Of a stretch of 64,000 nt of DNA, positions 8,181 to 61,872 are shown in pieces. The position numbers and the translations under genes are program-made. Below the pieces are notes generated by a model, which was given only the letters and a program-made list of their open reading frames with translations, made no database searches and had not been told where the DNA came from. Source of the stretch: Pyrococcus kukulkanii (lineage in GTDB: Archaea; Methanobacteriota_B; Thermococci; Thermococcales; Thermococcaceae); contig NZ_JARRIB010000001.1 of NCBI RefSeq assembly GCF_041647995.1, positions 186,001-250,000 on the forward strand. Reading direction: 5' to 3'. Position 1 is the first letter of the stretch. Each line of letters begins with the position of its first letter.

Positions 8181-8257
8181 TGGAGCCCCGGCCGGGCTTT
8201 GAACCCGGGACCTGCCGCTTACCAAGCGGCCGCTCTACCAGGCTGAGCCACCGGGGC
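8181..8257 (-). tRNA. tRNA-Thr (anticodon GGT)
   Basis: The minus strand folds as a standard tRNA. A 7-bp acceptor stem GCCCCGG/CCGGGGC, a D arm with GGTA, and an anticodon arm GCCGC-TTGGTAA-GCGGC with anticodon GGT are present. The T arm has the loop TTCAAAG. The 3' CCA is encoded in the DNA (8181-8183). There is no intron. It reads threonine ACC and ACT codons. Confidence 0.95.
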
Positions 8258-8303
8258 ACCCGCCGAAAAATGCTCGAATAAAGAGTATATATAAGGTTTT
8301 CGG

Positions 8304-8924
8304 TTAAGCAAAACCACCCCCTATATCCCAGAGGAACATTGTAAATTCAAAATCATATGCCTTAGAAAGGACAGAACCTGGATGAGCGGGGTAAATTATG
8401 TAAAACTTCCTTAATCCAATTATTTTGTGGCTATCCTTAGGATCAACCTCATAGCTCCACACCTCAGTTATAGGCAAGGGGAAGAGGCTCCTTGTTATGA
8501 CAACCGCATTAACGACATCATACTTAAATTTGAGCTTGTTAAACTTTTTATCGGTAAGTCTAAACGCAACCATGGGGCCTATTTTTGGCATTCCAAATTT
8601 TTTAATTGCAGTTACGTTGAATTTGTAATATTCATTCTCTTCCATACTTTCTATTAGACAACCAGCCGTCAAGCACGTTTTTGTTTTGGTAAGGGAGTAA
8701 ACGTACAGATAATCACTTGTTATCTTAAATTGAAGCAATGCTGTTATTGGGAGGGTCACGATTGCCATTATTATAAAACCACGTGCAACATCTCTCCAGT
8801 ATTTCTTTATGATATAGTCCCACTTAGCCCTTAATGTTATCAAAAATGCCGCTGGAATGAGAGAGAAATACAAAATCATGCCAAATATATATCCGCCAAA
8901 TGATGGAAAGTGTTCAAAGTACAT
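8304..8924 (-). CDS. Hypothetical membrane protein lying between tRNA genes
   Basis: The product is 206 residues and I do not recognise a family. Two hydrophobic helices are visible near the N terminus: about residues 9-31 (GGYIFGMILYFSLIPAAFLI) and about 47-66 (ARGFIIMAIVTLPITALLQF). About 140 mostly soluble residues follow, containing one C-x4-C pair (TCLTAGC). A GGTGGTGGAAA ribosome site supports the start at 8924. Codons are more A+T-rich than in the neighbouring RNA polymerase and exosome genes. Its position between two tRNA loci suggests lineage-specific insertion, but that is inference only. Confidence 0.7.
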   Translation of the reverse strand: MYFEHFPSFGGYIFGMILYFSLIPAAFLITLRAKWDYIIKKYWRDVARGFIIMAIVTLPITALLQFKITSDYLYVYSLTKTKTCLTAGCLIESMEENEYYKFNVTAIKKFGMPKIGPMVAFRLTDKKFNKLKFKYDVVNAVVITRSLFPLPITEVWSYEVDPKDSHKIIGLRKFYIIYPAHPGSVLSKAYDFEFTMFLWDIGGGFA

Positions 8925-8985
8925 TTTCCACCACCAGAAAACTCGATATTAATCCCCTTATAAAAAGTTTTAAGAATTATAAAAA

Positions 8986-9063
8986 TGGTGGGGCCGCCGG
9001 GATTTGAACCCGGGTCACGGGCTCCCAAAGCCCGCAGGATGGACCAAGCTACCCTACGGCCCC
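8986..9063 (-). tRNA. tRNA-Pro (anticodon TGG)
   Basis: The minus strand gives acceptor stem GGGGCCG paired with CGGCCCC, a D arm, an anticodon arm CGGGC-TTTGGGA-GCCCG with anticodon TGG, and a T arm with TTCAAAT. A is the discriminator base and CCA is encoded (8986-8988). It lies 2 bases from the next tRNA, so the two are probably processed from one transcript. Confidence 0.95.
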
Positions 9064-9065
9064 GC

Positions 9066-9142
9066 TGGAGCCCCGGGCGGGATTTGAACCCGCGACCTGG
9101 GGATTACAAGTCCCCCGCCCCACCAGGCTAGGCTACCGGGGC
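9066..9142 (-). tRNA. tRNA-Thr (anticodon TGT)
   Basis: The minus strand gives acceptor stem GCCCCGG/CCGGGGC and an anticodon arm GGGGA-CTTGTAA-TCCCC with anticodon TGT. The T loop is TTCAAAT and the 3' CCA is encoded. It is the second threonine tRNA within 1 kb. Its acceptor stem and discriminator are identical to those of the tRNA-Thr(GGT) at 8.2 kb, which fits recognition by a single threonyl-tRNA synthetase. Confidence 0.95.
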
Positions 9143-30221: not shown

Positions 30222-30989
30222 ATGAGGTTCACCGTCATTGGAAACTTCACGGTTGACATTATAGAGGGAAGGAAAAGACCAGGAGGAGGAGCGTATTACT
30301 CCTCATTGGTTCTCTCAAAGTTTGCCGATGTGAGGGTTCTCACAAAGATAGGGCCAGATTATCCAAGAGAATGGTTAAAGGAAATGGAAGAACATGTTGA
30401 GCTAGTTCCCATAAGGGGAATCTCAAGCGTAGTGTACGAGCTCATTTACAGAGGAGAAGAAAGAGTCATTAGGGTGCTCTCCAAAGGAGATGCATTCAAA
30501 GATCATGAACTCCTAGAAGTTCGAGGAAAAGTTATCATAAATCCTGTGGCCAATGAGATATCCCCCAATCAAGTTTTGCTATTTCGGAAGCCATCTCTTG
30601 ACGTTCAGGGGTTTGTTAGGGAGCTAAAGGAGTATGTAGGCCTGAGGGAAATTAACGGTTGGTTTCTCTCCAATTGTAAGGTCGTCCATGCTTCCCTCGA
30701 GGAGTATCAGAAAATAGTGAACCCAGGAAAGCCCGAAGTATTAGCGGTAACAAACGGAAGCAACGAGGGAATTCTGATAGCTAGCGAAACGATTAAGTTC
30801 AGACCAAGGAAGATTAACATCAAAGATCCGACGGGAGCAGGGGACGCATTTTTAGCCCTGCTAACTTATGGAGTTGAAAGGTTTGGCATCAGAGAAGGGT
30901 TAGAGTTTGCACTTGAGGAGACGGCAAAGTTCTTGAACCTTGGATTAGAGAAGTACTTGAACCGCGATGATGAAGCCTCGATTGGCTGA
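30222..30989 (+). CDS. PfkB-family sugar kinase
   Basis: This small ribokinase-like enzyme has 255 residues. The glycine-rich N-terminal substrate motif is GGGAYYSSLVLSKFADVRV and the ATP/anion-hole motif is DPTGAGDAFLALLTYG near residue 205-220, which includes the catalytic aspartate. The substrate is uncertain; archaeal relatives phosphorylate sugars, nucleosides or myo-inositol. No ribosome site precedes ATG 30222. GGATTTAAAAAC lies about 26 bases upstream, which fits a leaderless transcript. Its last codons and stop are part of a box C/D RNA candidate (30962-31022). Confidence 0.88.
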   Translation: MRFTVIGNFTVDIIEGRKRPGGGAYYSSLVLSKFADVRVLTKIGPDYPREWLKEMEEHVELVPIRGISSVVYELIYRGEERVIRVLSKGDAFKDHELLEVRGKVIINPVANEISPNQVLLFRKPSLDVQGFVRELKEYVGLREINGWFLSNCKVVHASLEEYQKIVNPGKPEVLAVTNGSNEGILIASETIKFRPRKINIKDPTGAGDAFLALLTYGVERFGIREGLEFALEETAKFLNLGLEKYLNRDDEASIG

Positions 30990-31022
30990 ATCGCGATGAT
31001 TGGGAGGGACTTCCCTGAGCGG
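30962..31022 (+). ncRNA. Box C/D guide RNA candidate overlapping the end of pfkB
   Basis: In order are: a terminal stem CCGC (30962-30965); box C ATGATGA (30967-30973); a 12-base guide AGCCTCGATTGG; box D' CTGA (30986-30989); a 4-base spacer; box C' CGATGA (30994-30999); a 15-base guide TTGGGAGGGACTTCC; box D CTGA (31015-31018); and the closing stem GCGG (31019-31022). This is the standard archaeal two-guide layout. The predicted 2'-O-methylation sites are opposite the fifth base before each D box: a U within target CCAATCGAGGCT and a G within GGAAGTCCCTCCCAA. The targets are not identified. Box D' contains the pfkB stop codon. Confidence 0.75.
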
Positions 31023-40808: not shown

Positions 40809-40868
40809 AAGGCAATGAGGAAAATTTCGCTAGCTGAGTGATGATGACTACCCTCGCAACCGAGCCTA
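40809..40868 (+). ncRNA. Box C/D guide RNA candidate beside lrpA, with a compensated kink-turn
   Basis: The order is: stem AGGC; box C ATGAGGA (40815-40821); 12-base guide AAATTTCGCTAG; box D' CTGA (40834-40837); 3-base spacer; box C' ATGATGA (40841-40847); 12-base guide CTACCCTCGCAA; box D CCGA (40860-40863); and closing stem GCCT. Box C has G and box D has C in place of the usual opposed U and U, a compensated pair at the same kink-turn position. The first guide matches ten bases of the conserved 23S segment TAGCGAAATT, pointing to methylation of the C in TAGC. CGCTTTTAAGG upstream can be its TATA box. It touches the lrpA stop. Confidence 0.75.
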
Positions 40869-42934: not shown

Positions 42935-42996
42935 GAGCCCTCAGCGAGAAGTCGATCATCATAAATCAGCTCACTCCTTTTCCAATCATCGGGCTC
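42935..42996 (-). ncRNA. Box C/D guide RNA candidate overlapping the antiporter stop codon
   Basis: On the minus strand: terminal stem GAGCCC (42996-42991); box C CGATGA (42991-42986); 16-base guide TTGGAAAAGGAGTGAG; box D' CTGA (42969-42966); spacer TTTA; box C' TGATGA (42961-42956); 11-base guide TCGACTTCTCG; box D CTGA (42944-42941); closing stem GGGCTC (42940-42935). The six-base terminal stem is perfect and the spacing is canonical. The TGA of box C is also the stop codon of the antiporter gene. Predicted target strings are CTCACTCCTTTTCCAA and CGAGAAGTCGA; I could not place them. Confidence 0.8.
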
Positions 42997-55643: not shown

Positions 55644-55830
55644 GTAATTTCCCCCATCAATAGGTTAAGATTTAACTTATATAAGGATTGCTGACTAATT
55701 TTATAGGTGGTATTTTATTTTAAATTATTACGTAATTAATATACTCGTTGTAAGTGTTATTAGGTCTAAATAATGTTATTTAAAAACGTTTCTGGCAAAA
55801 TTTTAATACGAGTAAAGCGATTTATAATTG

Positions 55831-55932
55831 CCCGACGAGTACTGAGGGTTGCGATGACGTCGGGACCCCCAGGGGGCCGACAGAACATAAATGGCCCCCA
55901 AACCCTTTTAACCCCGCCGGCGGTTCTTTTTT
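55831..55932 (+). ncRNA. Structured GC-rich RNA with kink-turn-like loop upstream of the PP-loop ATPase
   Basis: In an otherwise A+T-rich gap, CCCGACG (55831-55837) pairs perfectly with CGTCGGG (55858-55864). The enclosed loop has CTGA (55842-55845) and GATGA (55853-55857) separated by seven bases, as in L7Ae-binding kink-loops. A second perfect stem GGGGGCC/GGCCCCC (55872-55878 with 55893-55899) closes a 14-base loop containing ACA. Then follow the palindrome CCGCCGGCGG (55914-55923) and TTCTTTTTT. TTTTAATAC at 55801-55809 fits a promoter. It may be an H/ACA-like or other GC-rich noncoding RNA as known from Pyrococcus, or a leader element of the next gene. Class uncertain. Confidence 0.6.
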
Positions 55933-55933
55933 C

Positions 55934-56728
55934 ATGCTTGATGATGTCGTAAGAGAGATAAGAAAATTCGGAGAGAAAACAAGAATTATTGAAAAGAAGA
56001 TAGTTGTCATGTTCTCAGGAGGTAAAGACTCAAGCTTAACCCTGTACATATTAAAAGAAGCTGGATTCAAAGTTTCTGCTCTAACGTTCTTCCACAAATG
56101 GAGCTGGCCCGAGGTTTTGAGATGGGGAATGAAGTTCACAAAGAAGCTTGGAGTTGAGCACTACCTCATAGACATAACCGATGGCCTTCTCAAAGACGCT
56201 GTTGGGAGGAAGGGACCGATATGCGTGCACTGCAAAAAGGTCATGCTGAAGAACGCTAAATGGTTCGCTCTAAATAACGGCTTTTCTTACATAGCGAAGG
56301 GGGACAATGCCAACGACAAAATAGTGGGAACACTACTCGACCAATGCCCTGGGGACATTCGATTGTGCGAAATTCCAAAGATAGGAATACCGATTTTCAG
56401 GCCTCTAATCAGATATAAAGCCTCAGAAGTTGAAAAGCTGACTGAGGAAGCTGGGATTAAGCCCTACAGGATGTACGAGCATGGAAGGAGGAAACAGTGG
56501 AGGGAGGGATGTCCTCTACAGTACATAGATGAGGACAAAAGGATTACGGAGAAACTCATGGATCTCGCATTCAAGGTAAACTATAAGGTAAGCAAAATAG
56601 CCAGGAAACACAAGGTGAGGGTAAGTGTGAGGGTGCCGAGCTTTGAGGTAATGTGCTGGAACTGCACGGAGGAAGTTCTTAGCGAAGTTAAAAAGGTTAT
56701 AGAAAATTTCAGTAGGGGAACATTATAA
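55934..56728 (+). CDS. PP-loop ATP pyrophosphatase with paired cysteine motifs
   Basis: This 264-residue enzyme of the adenine-nucleotide alpha-hydrolase fold has the PP-loop KIVVMFSGGKDSSLTLYIL near residue 24-36. Two cysteine pairs follow: ICVHCKKVML (about 96-99) and, at the C terminus, EVMCWNCTEEV. PP-loop enzymes with such pairs often transfer sulfur to tRNA or amidate substrates, so a sulfurtransferase is a fair guess; the substrate is unknown. There is no ribosome site: T-rich sequence runs to the ATG, and CCCTTTTAA lies about 25 bases upstream, fitting a leaderless message. Confidence 0.82.
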   Translation: MLDDVVREIRKFGEKTRIIEKKIVVMFSGGKDSSLTLYILKEAGFKVSALTFFHKWSWPEVLRWGMKFTKKLGVEHYLIDITDGLLKDAVGRKGPICVHCKKVMLKNAKWFALNNGFSYIAKGDNANDKIVGTLLDQCPGDIRLCEIPKIGIPIFRPLIRYKASEVEKLTEEAGIKPYRMYEHGRRKQWREGCPLQYIDEDKRITEKLMDLAFKVNYKVSKIARKHKVRVSVRVPSFEVMCWNCTEEVLSEVKKVIENFSRGTL

Positions 56729-61754: not shown

Positions 61755-61798
61755 ATAAATTTTTTAACCAAATTAGTTGACTAACTATTGGCGGGCTT

Positions 61799-61857
61799 AT
61801 GATGAACTTTCCCTACGGCCTGAGCCGTAGGGCGATGAGGAATACAGCCAGGGCTGA
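61799..61857 (+). ncRNA. Box C/D-like RNA with self-complementary first guide
   Basis: Box C ATGATGA (61799-61805), a 14-base guide ACTTTCCCTACGGC, box D' CTGA (61820-61823), a 9-base spacer GCCGTAGGG, box C' CGATGA (61833-61838), a 15-base guide GGAATACAGCCAGGG and box D CTGA (61854-61857) occur in proper order. Unlike the other three candidates there is no clear terminal stem. Nine bases of the first guide (CCCTACGGC) are perfectly complementary to the spacer GCCGTAGGG, giving a hairpin with CTGA as its loop. TTTTTTAACC upstream can be a promoter. It lies 15 bases before the phosphoesterase ATG, so a leader element is the alternative. Confidence 0.6.
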
Positions 61858-61872
61858 TTTTAGGTGATAAAA

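Follow-up and report, generated by a model that had tools for sequence, protein, structure and literature searches.

The GC-rich island in front of a PP-loop ATPase gene of Pyrococcus kukulkanii is two things. An RNA gene extends from position 55830 to about 55899 of the window, and behind it, at 55906 to 55933, lies the core promoter from which the PP-loop gene itself would be transcribed (the window is the 64,000-nt stretch of contig NZ_JARRIB010000001.1 that was analyzed). Judged from its sequence, the RNA is the ortholog of sRk28, a small RNA known from Pyrococcus and Thermococcus. With a probability of roughly 0.55, we favor the explanation that sRk28 is a stand-alone structured RNA of the Thermococcaceae, which acts in trans with a protein or ligand partner and not in cis.

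The GC content of the island is 0.61 (55830 to 55933), as opposed to 0.24 for the preceding sequence (55644 to 55829). A sequence-only reading of the window had described a GC-rich island in this A+T-rich gap, and the elements that it listed were all found where it placed them: two perfect 7-bp stems, a CTGA (55842 to 55845) and a GATGA (55853 to 55857), an ACA in the second loop, and the palindrome CCGCCGGCGG (55914 to 55923). The T-run that it put directly before the ATG at 55934 is present (TTCTTTTTTC, 55924 to 55933) but not immediately adjacent, with a single C between the two. The folding energy of the island is within chance for its composition (z of -1.37, with 22 of 200 shuffles folding equally well or better). 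Despite this ordinary energy, the island is more than a product of chance, because it is conserved and paired across relatives.

Table 1. Features of the window, in window coordinates
Feature	Position	Strand	Details
BRE-like AA and TATA box of the RNA gene	55797-55798 (AA), 55801-55808 (TATA box)	+	TATA box TTTTAATA; from the upstream alignment
sRk28 RNA, 70-nt form	55830-55899	+	match to model R1, contig positions 241830-241899, 81.3 bits
Stem P1 with 20-nt loop	55831-55864	+	CCCGACG (55831-55837) pairing with CGTCGGG (55858-55864)
Candidate pseudoknot	55846-55868	+	GGGU (55846-55849) with ACCC (55865-55868)
Stem P2 with loop GACA...	55872-55899	+	GGGGGCC (55872-55878) pairing with GGCCCCC (55893-55899)
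PP-loop core promoter	55906-55933	+	TTTTAA at -28, palindrome CCGCCGGCGG, pyrimidine tract to the start codon
PP-loop ATPase gene, 264 aa	55934-56728	+	open reading frame; neighbor, outside the RNA unit
Box C/D sRNAs and tRNAs	61795-61859, 42939-42993, 40811-40865, 30963-31020, 8184-9142		Rfam

Conservation and identity of the RNA

BLAST searches with the island returned a strong copy from most Thermococcaceae genomes. A covariance model, R1, was built from 59 distinct copies of 64 to 70 nt. No Rfam family reached its cut-off on the island. At E values up to 10, the sole Rfam match, scoring 16.3 bits as opposed to a cut-off of 34, was to a viral frameshift element. With R1, 75 of the 94 Thermococcaceae genomes gave a copy, each with one match of at least 73.9 bits. 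Outside the family, R1 matched none of the 21 genomes searched from the same class (E up to 1, strict filters). A pattern scan of genome contigs found at least 118 loci; among the 80 matches listed, six were from Thermococcus and the other 74 scored at best 22 bits, which is the chance level. The best of 37 loci scored in viral contigs reached 21.5 bits, and no match was found in plasmids and phages. The consensus of the 59-copy alignment, in which 39 columns are invariant, is GCCCGAsGAGUAn(1-4)GGGUUGCGAUGACsUCGGGACCCCCAGGGGGsCGACAn..AAnGsCCCCC.

In the genome that we take to be that of P. abyssi GE5 (G004), the minus strand was matched at 527691 to 527798 by the island (BLAST) and at 527730 to 527797 by the covariance model. 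Phok et al. (2011), in Table 1 of the accessible part of their paper, place sRk28 of P. abyssi on the minus strand at 527697 to 527833, with the 5' start at 527798 (PMC3124441). Thus, the mapped 5' end is 1 nt off the end of the model match, and the strand agrees. The same source reports a 70/100-nt RNA, detected by Northern blotting and primer extension, that is growth-phase regulated and adjoins PAB1992, whose product is an ATPase containing a QueC-like domain; the conservation of the RNA is listed there as "all except Tsi" (PMC3124441). In T. kodakarensis, sRk28 was found through cDNA sequencing in the 2014 transcriptome, which, as far as its accessible text goes, describes a growth-phase-regulated orphan transcript followed by a gene with its own promoter and start site (PMC4247193).

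The noncoding RNA of about 70 to 100 nt that had been predicted to begin near 55831 therefore matches sRk28 in size and 5' end, and its stems are conserved in the Thermococcales. The suggestion that its class may be new did not hold up: the RNA was described in 2011 as sRk28, without a function, and the gene has been known as an object since 2011/2014. Like sRk28 as published, the family combines a conserved sequence with compensatory changes in its hairpins; it is also consistent with the potential pseudoknot, the columns of which are almost invariant. Our literature search, with subscription papers mostly outside its reach, found no functional follow-up of sRk28.

Secondary structure

Both stems, on whose conservation among relatives the original proposal depended, are conserved, and both contain compensatory changes. 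In the 59 copies, 98.0% of cells were paired overall, a value that none of 500 shuffles attained; sliding the partner by one to three columns left at most 62.6% of the cells paired. The number of cells with two-sided change and the covariation score likewise exceeded those of all 500 shuffles. The number of pairs with two-sided change (2) and the number of further pair types (7) were not above those of shuffles, 487 and 293 of 500 being as high, respectively. Covariation is limited to one pair per stem, and the remaining pairs are nearly invariant. In P1, the pair of columns 7 and 30 is CG in 43 copies, GC in 14 and UA in 2. In P2, the pair of columns 48 and 66 is GC in 26 copies, CG in 24 and GU in 1, with 7 other combinations and 1 gap. 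MAFFT misaligns the 3' side of P2 in part, and the P2 pair count is therefore lowered.

RNAalifold predicted a different pairing of the 3' half, in which columns 37 to 40 pair with columns 44 to 47 and a short CCCC/GGGG hairpin replaces P2. We prefer P2 because it has 24 two-sided changes. Folding of the single sequence yielded a nested GGGUU:GACCC alternative that is incompatible with P1, and the RNA may switch between this predicted fold and the P1 fold. In the candidate pseudoknot, GGGU within loop 1 faces ACCC directly 3' of P1; 100% of the cells are paired, and each of three one-sided changes preserves the pair. Since the columns are nearly invariant, this is weak evidence.

Other structures or products were considered and rejected. 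A K-turn drawn by eye on G8-A9 and G27-A28 with a GAU bulge conflicts with a pair that is kept, columns 8 and 29 (GC in 56, GU in 1 and other combinations in 2 of the 59 copies). A short peptide, MTSGPPGGRH, could be read by eye from the ATG at 55854; the loop varies in length, with a one-base insertion in locus L077 and a two-base deletion in L104, and nonsynonymous changes are found at columns 29, 35, 37 and 51. A box C/D sRNA, which would carry C and D boxes close to its ends, was dismissed on the basis of Rfam, which gave no match on the island though it detected the four C/D RNAs of the window. These are sR19, sR58, sR39 and sR20, and the window also holds three tRNAs (Table 1).

Promoters and neighboring genes

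The sequences upstream of the RNA share a promoter pattern. In an alignment of 72 distinct sequences, registered on the first G of the RNA, the BRE-like element has A at -33 in 64 sequences and at -32 in 54, and the TATA box lies at -28 to -23, with A or T at -26 to -24 in all 72. An A is found at -10 in 65 sequences, and C or T at -1 in all 72. Given this BRE/TATA pattern at a fixed distance, the start of the RNA (+1) is predicted at 55830. The P. abyssi copy has AAATAAG at the usual TATA distance.

The PP-loop gene has a promoter of its own. The TTTTAA nearest the ATG was located at -28 in all eight PP-loop genes that have the RNA (Pyrococcus). Of 22 genes without the RNA in front, 20 had it at -28 or -27, for a total of 28 out of 30. 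This sample consisted of those of the 76 PP-loop matches that had loci; for matches that did not start at Met, the nearest upstream in-frame ATG was taken. Because the TTTTAA spacing is the same with the RNA and, in Thermococcus, without it, the palindrome and the T-run belong to the promoter region of the PP-loop gene. The palindrome CCGCCGGCGG, between the TATA and the start codon, occurred in all eight Pyrococcus loci and in none of the 22 other PP-loop loci; a transcription factor could use it as its operator. A 100-nt form of the RNA would end inside the T tract (55924 to 55933), which may therefore double as its terminator, and this form would then be trimmed to 70 nt.

The genes around the RNA vary among clades. 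Of 75 loci, 8 have a PP-loop gene next to it, at a distance of about 1.5 kb or less; these comprise all eight Pyrococcus loci and no others. The remaining 67 loci have no PP-loop gene within about 1.5 kb per side, some of them stopping early at a contig end. Downstream genes include, by Pfam, a CBS-domain gene and a DUF357 gene and, by eye, what we presume to be genes for topoisomerase I, a ribosomal protein and a helicase. By a motif count, 41 of 75 loci have a radical SAM gene (Pfam) about 1.6 kb or less upstream, encoded on the opposite strand; from its motifs, we take it to be QueE. The divergent operon to which it belongs opens with a 166-aa protein, followed by an 82-aa protein, both lacking a Pfam match, and then the radical SAM protein. 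Several Thermococcus loci (L010, L012, L015, L016 and others) have a single TATA box between the RNA and this operon, in the region from about -60 to +1, and it could drive both. In many Thermococcus loci (L010, L019, L013, L021), the inverted repeats CAAACTTCGCC..GCGAAGTTTG and CAGCCCTTGC..GCAAGCGCTGG recur 3' of the RNA in different contexts. By these comparisons, the RNA is independent of any fixed neighbor gene.

The PP-loop protein exceeds the Pfam QueC cut-off (31.9 bits, cut-off of 22, residues 22 to 82) and also matched ThiI. Against NCBIfam, it reached no cut-off, with all matches far below. By eye, the protein has CxxC pairs and, further along, a cysteine of the GCP type, a pattern that presumably resembles that of TtuA-type 4Fe-4S tRNA thiolases.

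Function of the RNA and competing explanations

Comparison among genomes gave the promoter pattern with its predicted start (55830), both stems, the independence of neighbors and the loss of the RNA in some lineages. To these, the trans-acting explanation adds that GGGU of loop 1 would pair with ACCC just after P1, giving a compact pseudoknot, and that the invariant loops GAGU, GGGUUGC, AUGA and CCCCA would hold a protein or small ligand. In this form, sRk28 would act in trans in growing cells; the PP-loop gene would not be under its control in cis and, in Pyrococcus, would merely have its own promoter directly behind the RNA. The published orphan, growth-phase-dependent expression and the lack of a recurrent long antisense target (see below) fit this explanation. 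Against it, there is only one covarying pair per stem, the pseudoknot columns hardly vary, alternative folds exist, and the RNA is dispensable. A more tentative extension would make sRk28 the founding example of a class of archaeal RNAs, specific to the family, that are pseudoknotted and aptamer-like, act in trans, have evolved free of any cis gene and bind a protein or metabolite in growing cells.

A trans-acting antisense RNA is a possible but rather doubtful alternative. A segment of the loop (GCGAUGA) or the C-rich linker would seed-pair with several mRNAs and alter their translation or stability. The RNA's own promoter pattern, its published growth-phase expression, its invariant loop and its dispensability would all suit such a role. 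The complements in the genomes speak against it. The exact 12-nt complement of loop 1, TCATCGCAACCC, has the RNA gene itself as its sole site in 58 of the 75 RNA-bearing genomes; additional sites occur in 16, and G048 has a single site, away from the gene. No recurrent long antisense target was seen among the exact 12-nt complements in these 75 genomes. In 16S and 23S rRNA, the best contiguous complement without G-U pairs was 9 nt, with 42 and 72 of 100 mononucleotide shuffles, respectively, being as good. For contiguous complements in tRNAs (30 of 46 covered), 92 of 100 shuffles were as good.

We regard as improbable a functional tie between the RNA and the PP-loop protein, with both acting in trans and the RNA serving, for example, as a substrate. 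Proteins of the PP-loop superfamily modify RNA, and the two genes were lost together in one lineage. Nine of the 74 good genomes lack the RNA or have it in decayed form, so its function is dispensable. In a five-genome clade of genus g4 (support 90/92), it is decayed or gone: the old locus retains R1 matches of 36.3 bits in G079 and 25.6 bits in G084, G075 has no R1 match and a 3' remnant visible in the alignment only, and in G078 and G083 the RNA is unrecognizable at the locus, with no R1 match. No PP-loop ortholog was found in these same five genomes. The g4 tree was built from one gene (558 to 561 bases) in 13 genomes; it does not include G080 and G082, the latter having no marker match.

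Among the 74 good genomes, 61 have both genes, 4 the RNA only, 5 the PP-loop gene only and 4 neither (Fisher p of 0.006), with partial PP-loop matches (G060, G063 and G085) scored as present. For all 94 genomes, the numbers are 68, 7, 9 and 10, respectively, and the p value of 9e-5 is inflated by incomplete genomes. We do not treat the joint loss as a strong signal: all four good genomes with neither gene belong to the g4 clade, and without this clade the p value for good genomes is 1.0. The genomes with one gene and not the other likewise argue against a tie. Those retaining the PP-loop gene without the RNA are G046, G054, G055, G059 and G062. G059 has a weak R1 match of 21.5 bits, perhaps a decayed RNA, and G062 possibly reflects an assembly gap, since the RNA locus was not found. 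In G046, G050, G054 and G055, the RNA is cleanly gone (no R1 match) and the TATA box that could drive both the RNA and the divergent operon is retained. The copy in G052 (73% complete) has an internal deletion, which may be an assembly fault.

The published suggestion, in which the RNA is a cis-acting leader of the PP-loop gene akin to a preQ1 riboswitch, is highly improbable; for the RNA family as a whole, it is refuted. In its favor are the PP-loop gene next to the RNA at every Pyrococcus locus, the QueC match above the cut-off and, at 41 of 75 loci, the radical SAM gene that we take for QueE. Both earlier studies, in their accessible text, compare sRk28 to a preQ1 riboswitch (PMC3124441 and PMC4247193), and according to Phok et al. 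the P. abyssi copy is probably 5'UTR-derived, no promoter having been seen in front of it (PMC3124441). Cis control of the PP-loop gene, which the sequence-only reading had also raised, is contradicted by the adjacency in only 8 of 75 loci and by the TATA of that gene near -28 whether the RNA is present or absent. The orphan status of the RNA in T. kodakarensis, where the gene behind it is transcribed from a separate start site (PMC4247193), the location of the radical SAM operon on the opposite strand and the lack of a preQ1 match in Rfam at E values up to 10 argue in the same direction.

Finally, we give almost no credence to the idea of an H/ACA-related or other L7Ae-bound guide RNA, which had been drawn from the CTGA, the GATGA and the second-loop ACA of the window copy: the CTGA half of the supposed K-loop varies freely and is found in only 3 of 75 copies, no conserved K-turn or K-loop of an archaeal H/ACA guide was found in the 75, the ACA belongs to the apical loop of a stem, Rfam gave no match, and the contiguous complements to rRNA and to 30 of 46 tRNAs were not above shuffles. 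According to the accessible text of one source, H/ACA RNAs carry an ANA box that follows the lower stem on its 3' side, 14 to 15 nt from the upper stem (PMC4652768). No ANA box follows P1 in the aligned copies, where ACC is found in 56 of 59, and the bases following P2 are variable.

The comparison thus argues against the standing suggestion that sRk28 is an mRNA leader with a preQ1 riboswitch, and it points toward partners in trans. As a strongly conserved RNA present in Thermococcus, a genus in which gene deletion is feasible, sRk28 is well suited to the study of RNA regulation in archaea, and the lineages that lost it are natural knock-outs for comparison.

Among known RNAs, sRk33/SscA and HgcC/E/F/G of Pyrococcus are, like the sRk28 island, GC-rich conserved noncoding RNAs of AT-rich hyperthermophiles; no Rfam family of any kind matched the island at its cut-off. 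With the preQ1 riboswitch, sRk28 would share a small pseudoknot, as proposed here, and in some genomes it has queuosine-type genes nearby, whereas it differs in having no Rfam match, no fixed cis gene and a promoter pattern of its own. The RNA of the window is the same gene as sRk28 of P. abyssi and T. kodakarensis and shares its potential pseudoknot; growth-phase expression is published for both of these species. With the P. abyssi RNA, it also shares the place upstream of a QueC-like ATPase gene (PAB1992 in P. abyssi), and the model match there has the published strand and a 5' end within 1 nt. The published RNA was regarded as probably 5'UTR-derived, with no promoter seen in P. abyssi, whereas we find a TATA-like AAATAAG at the usual distance; and where it was presented as resembling a preQ1 riboswitch, the RNA unit described here is independent of the PP-loop gene.
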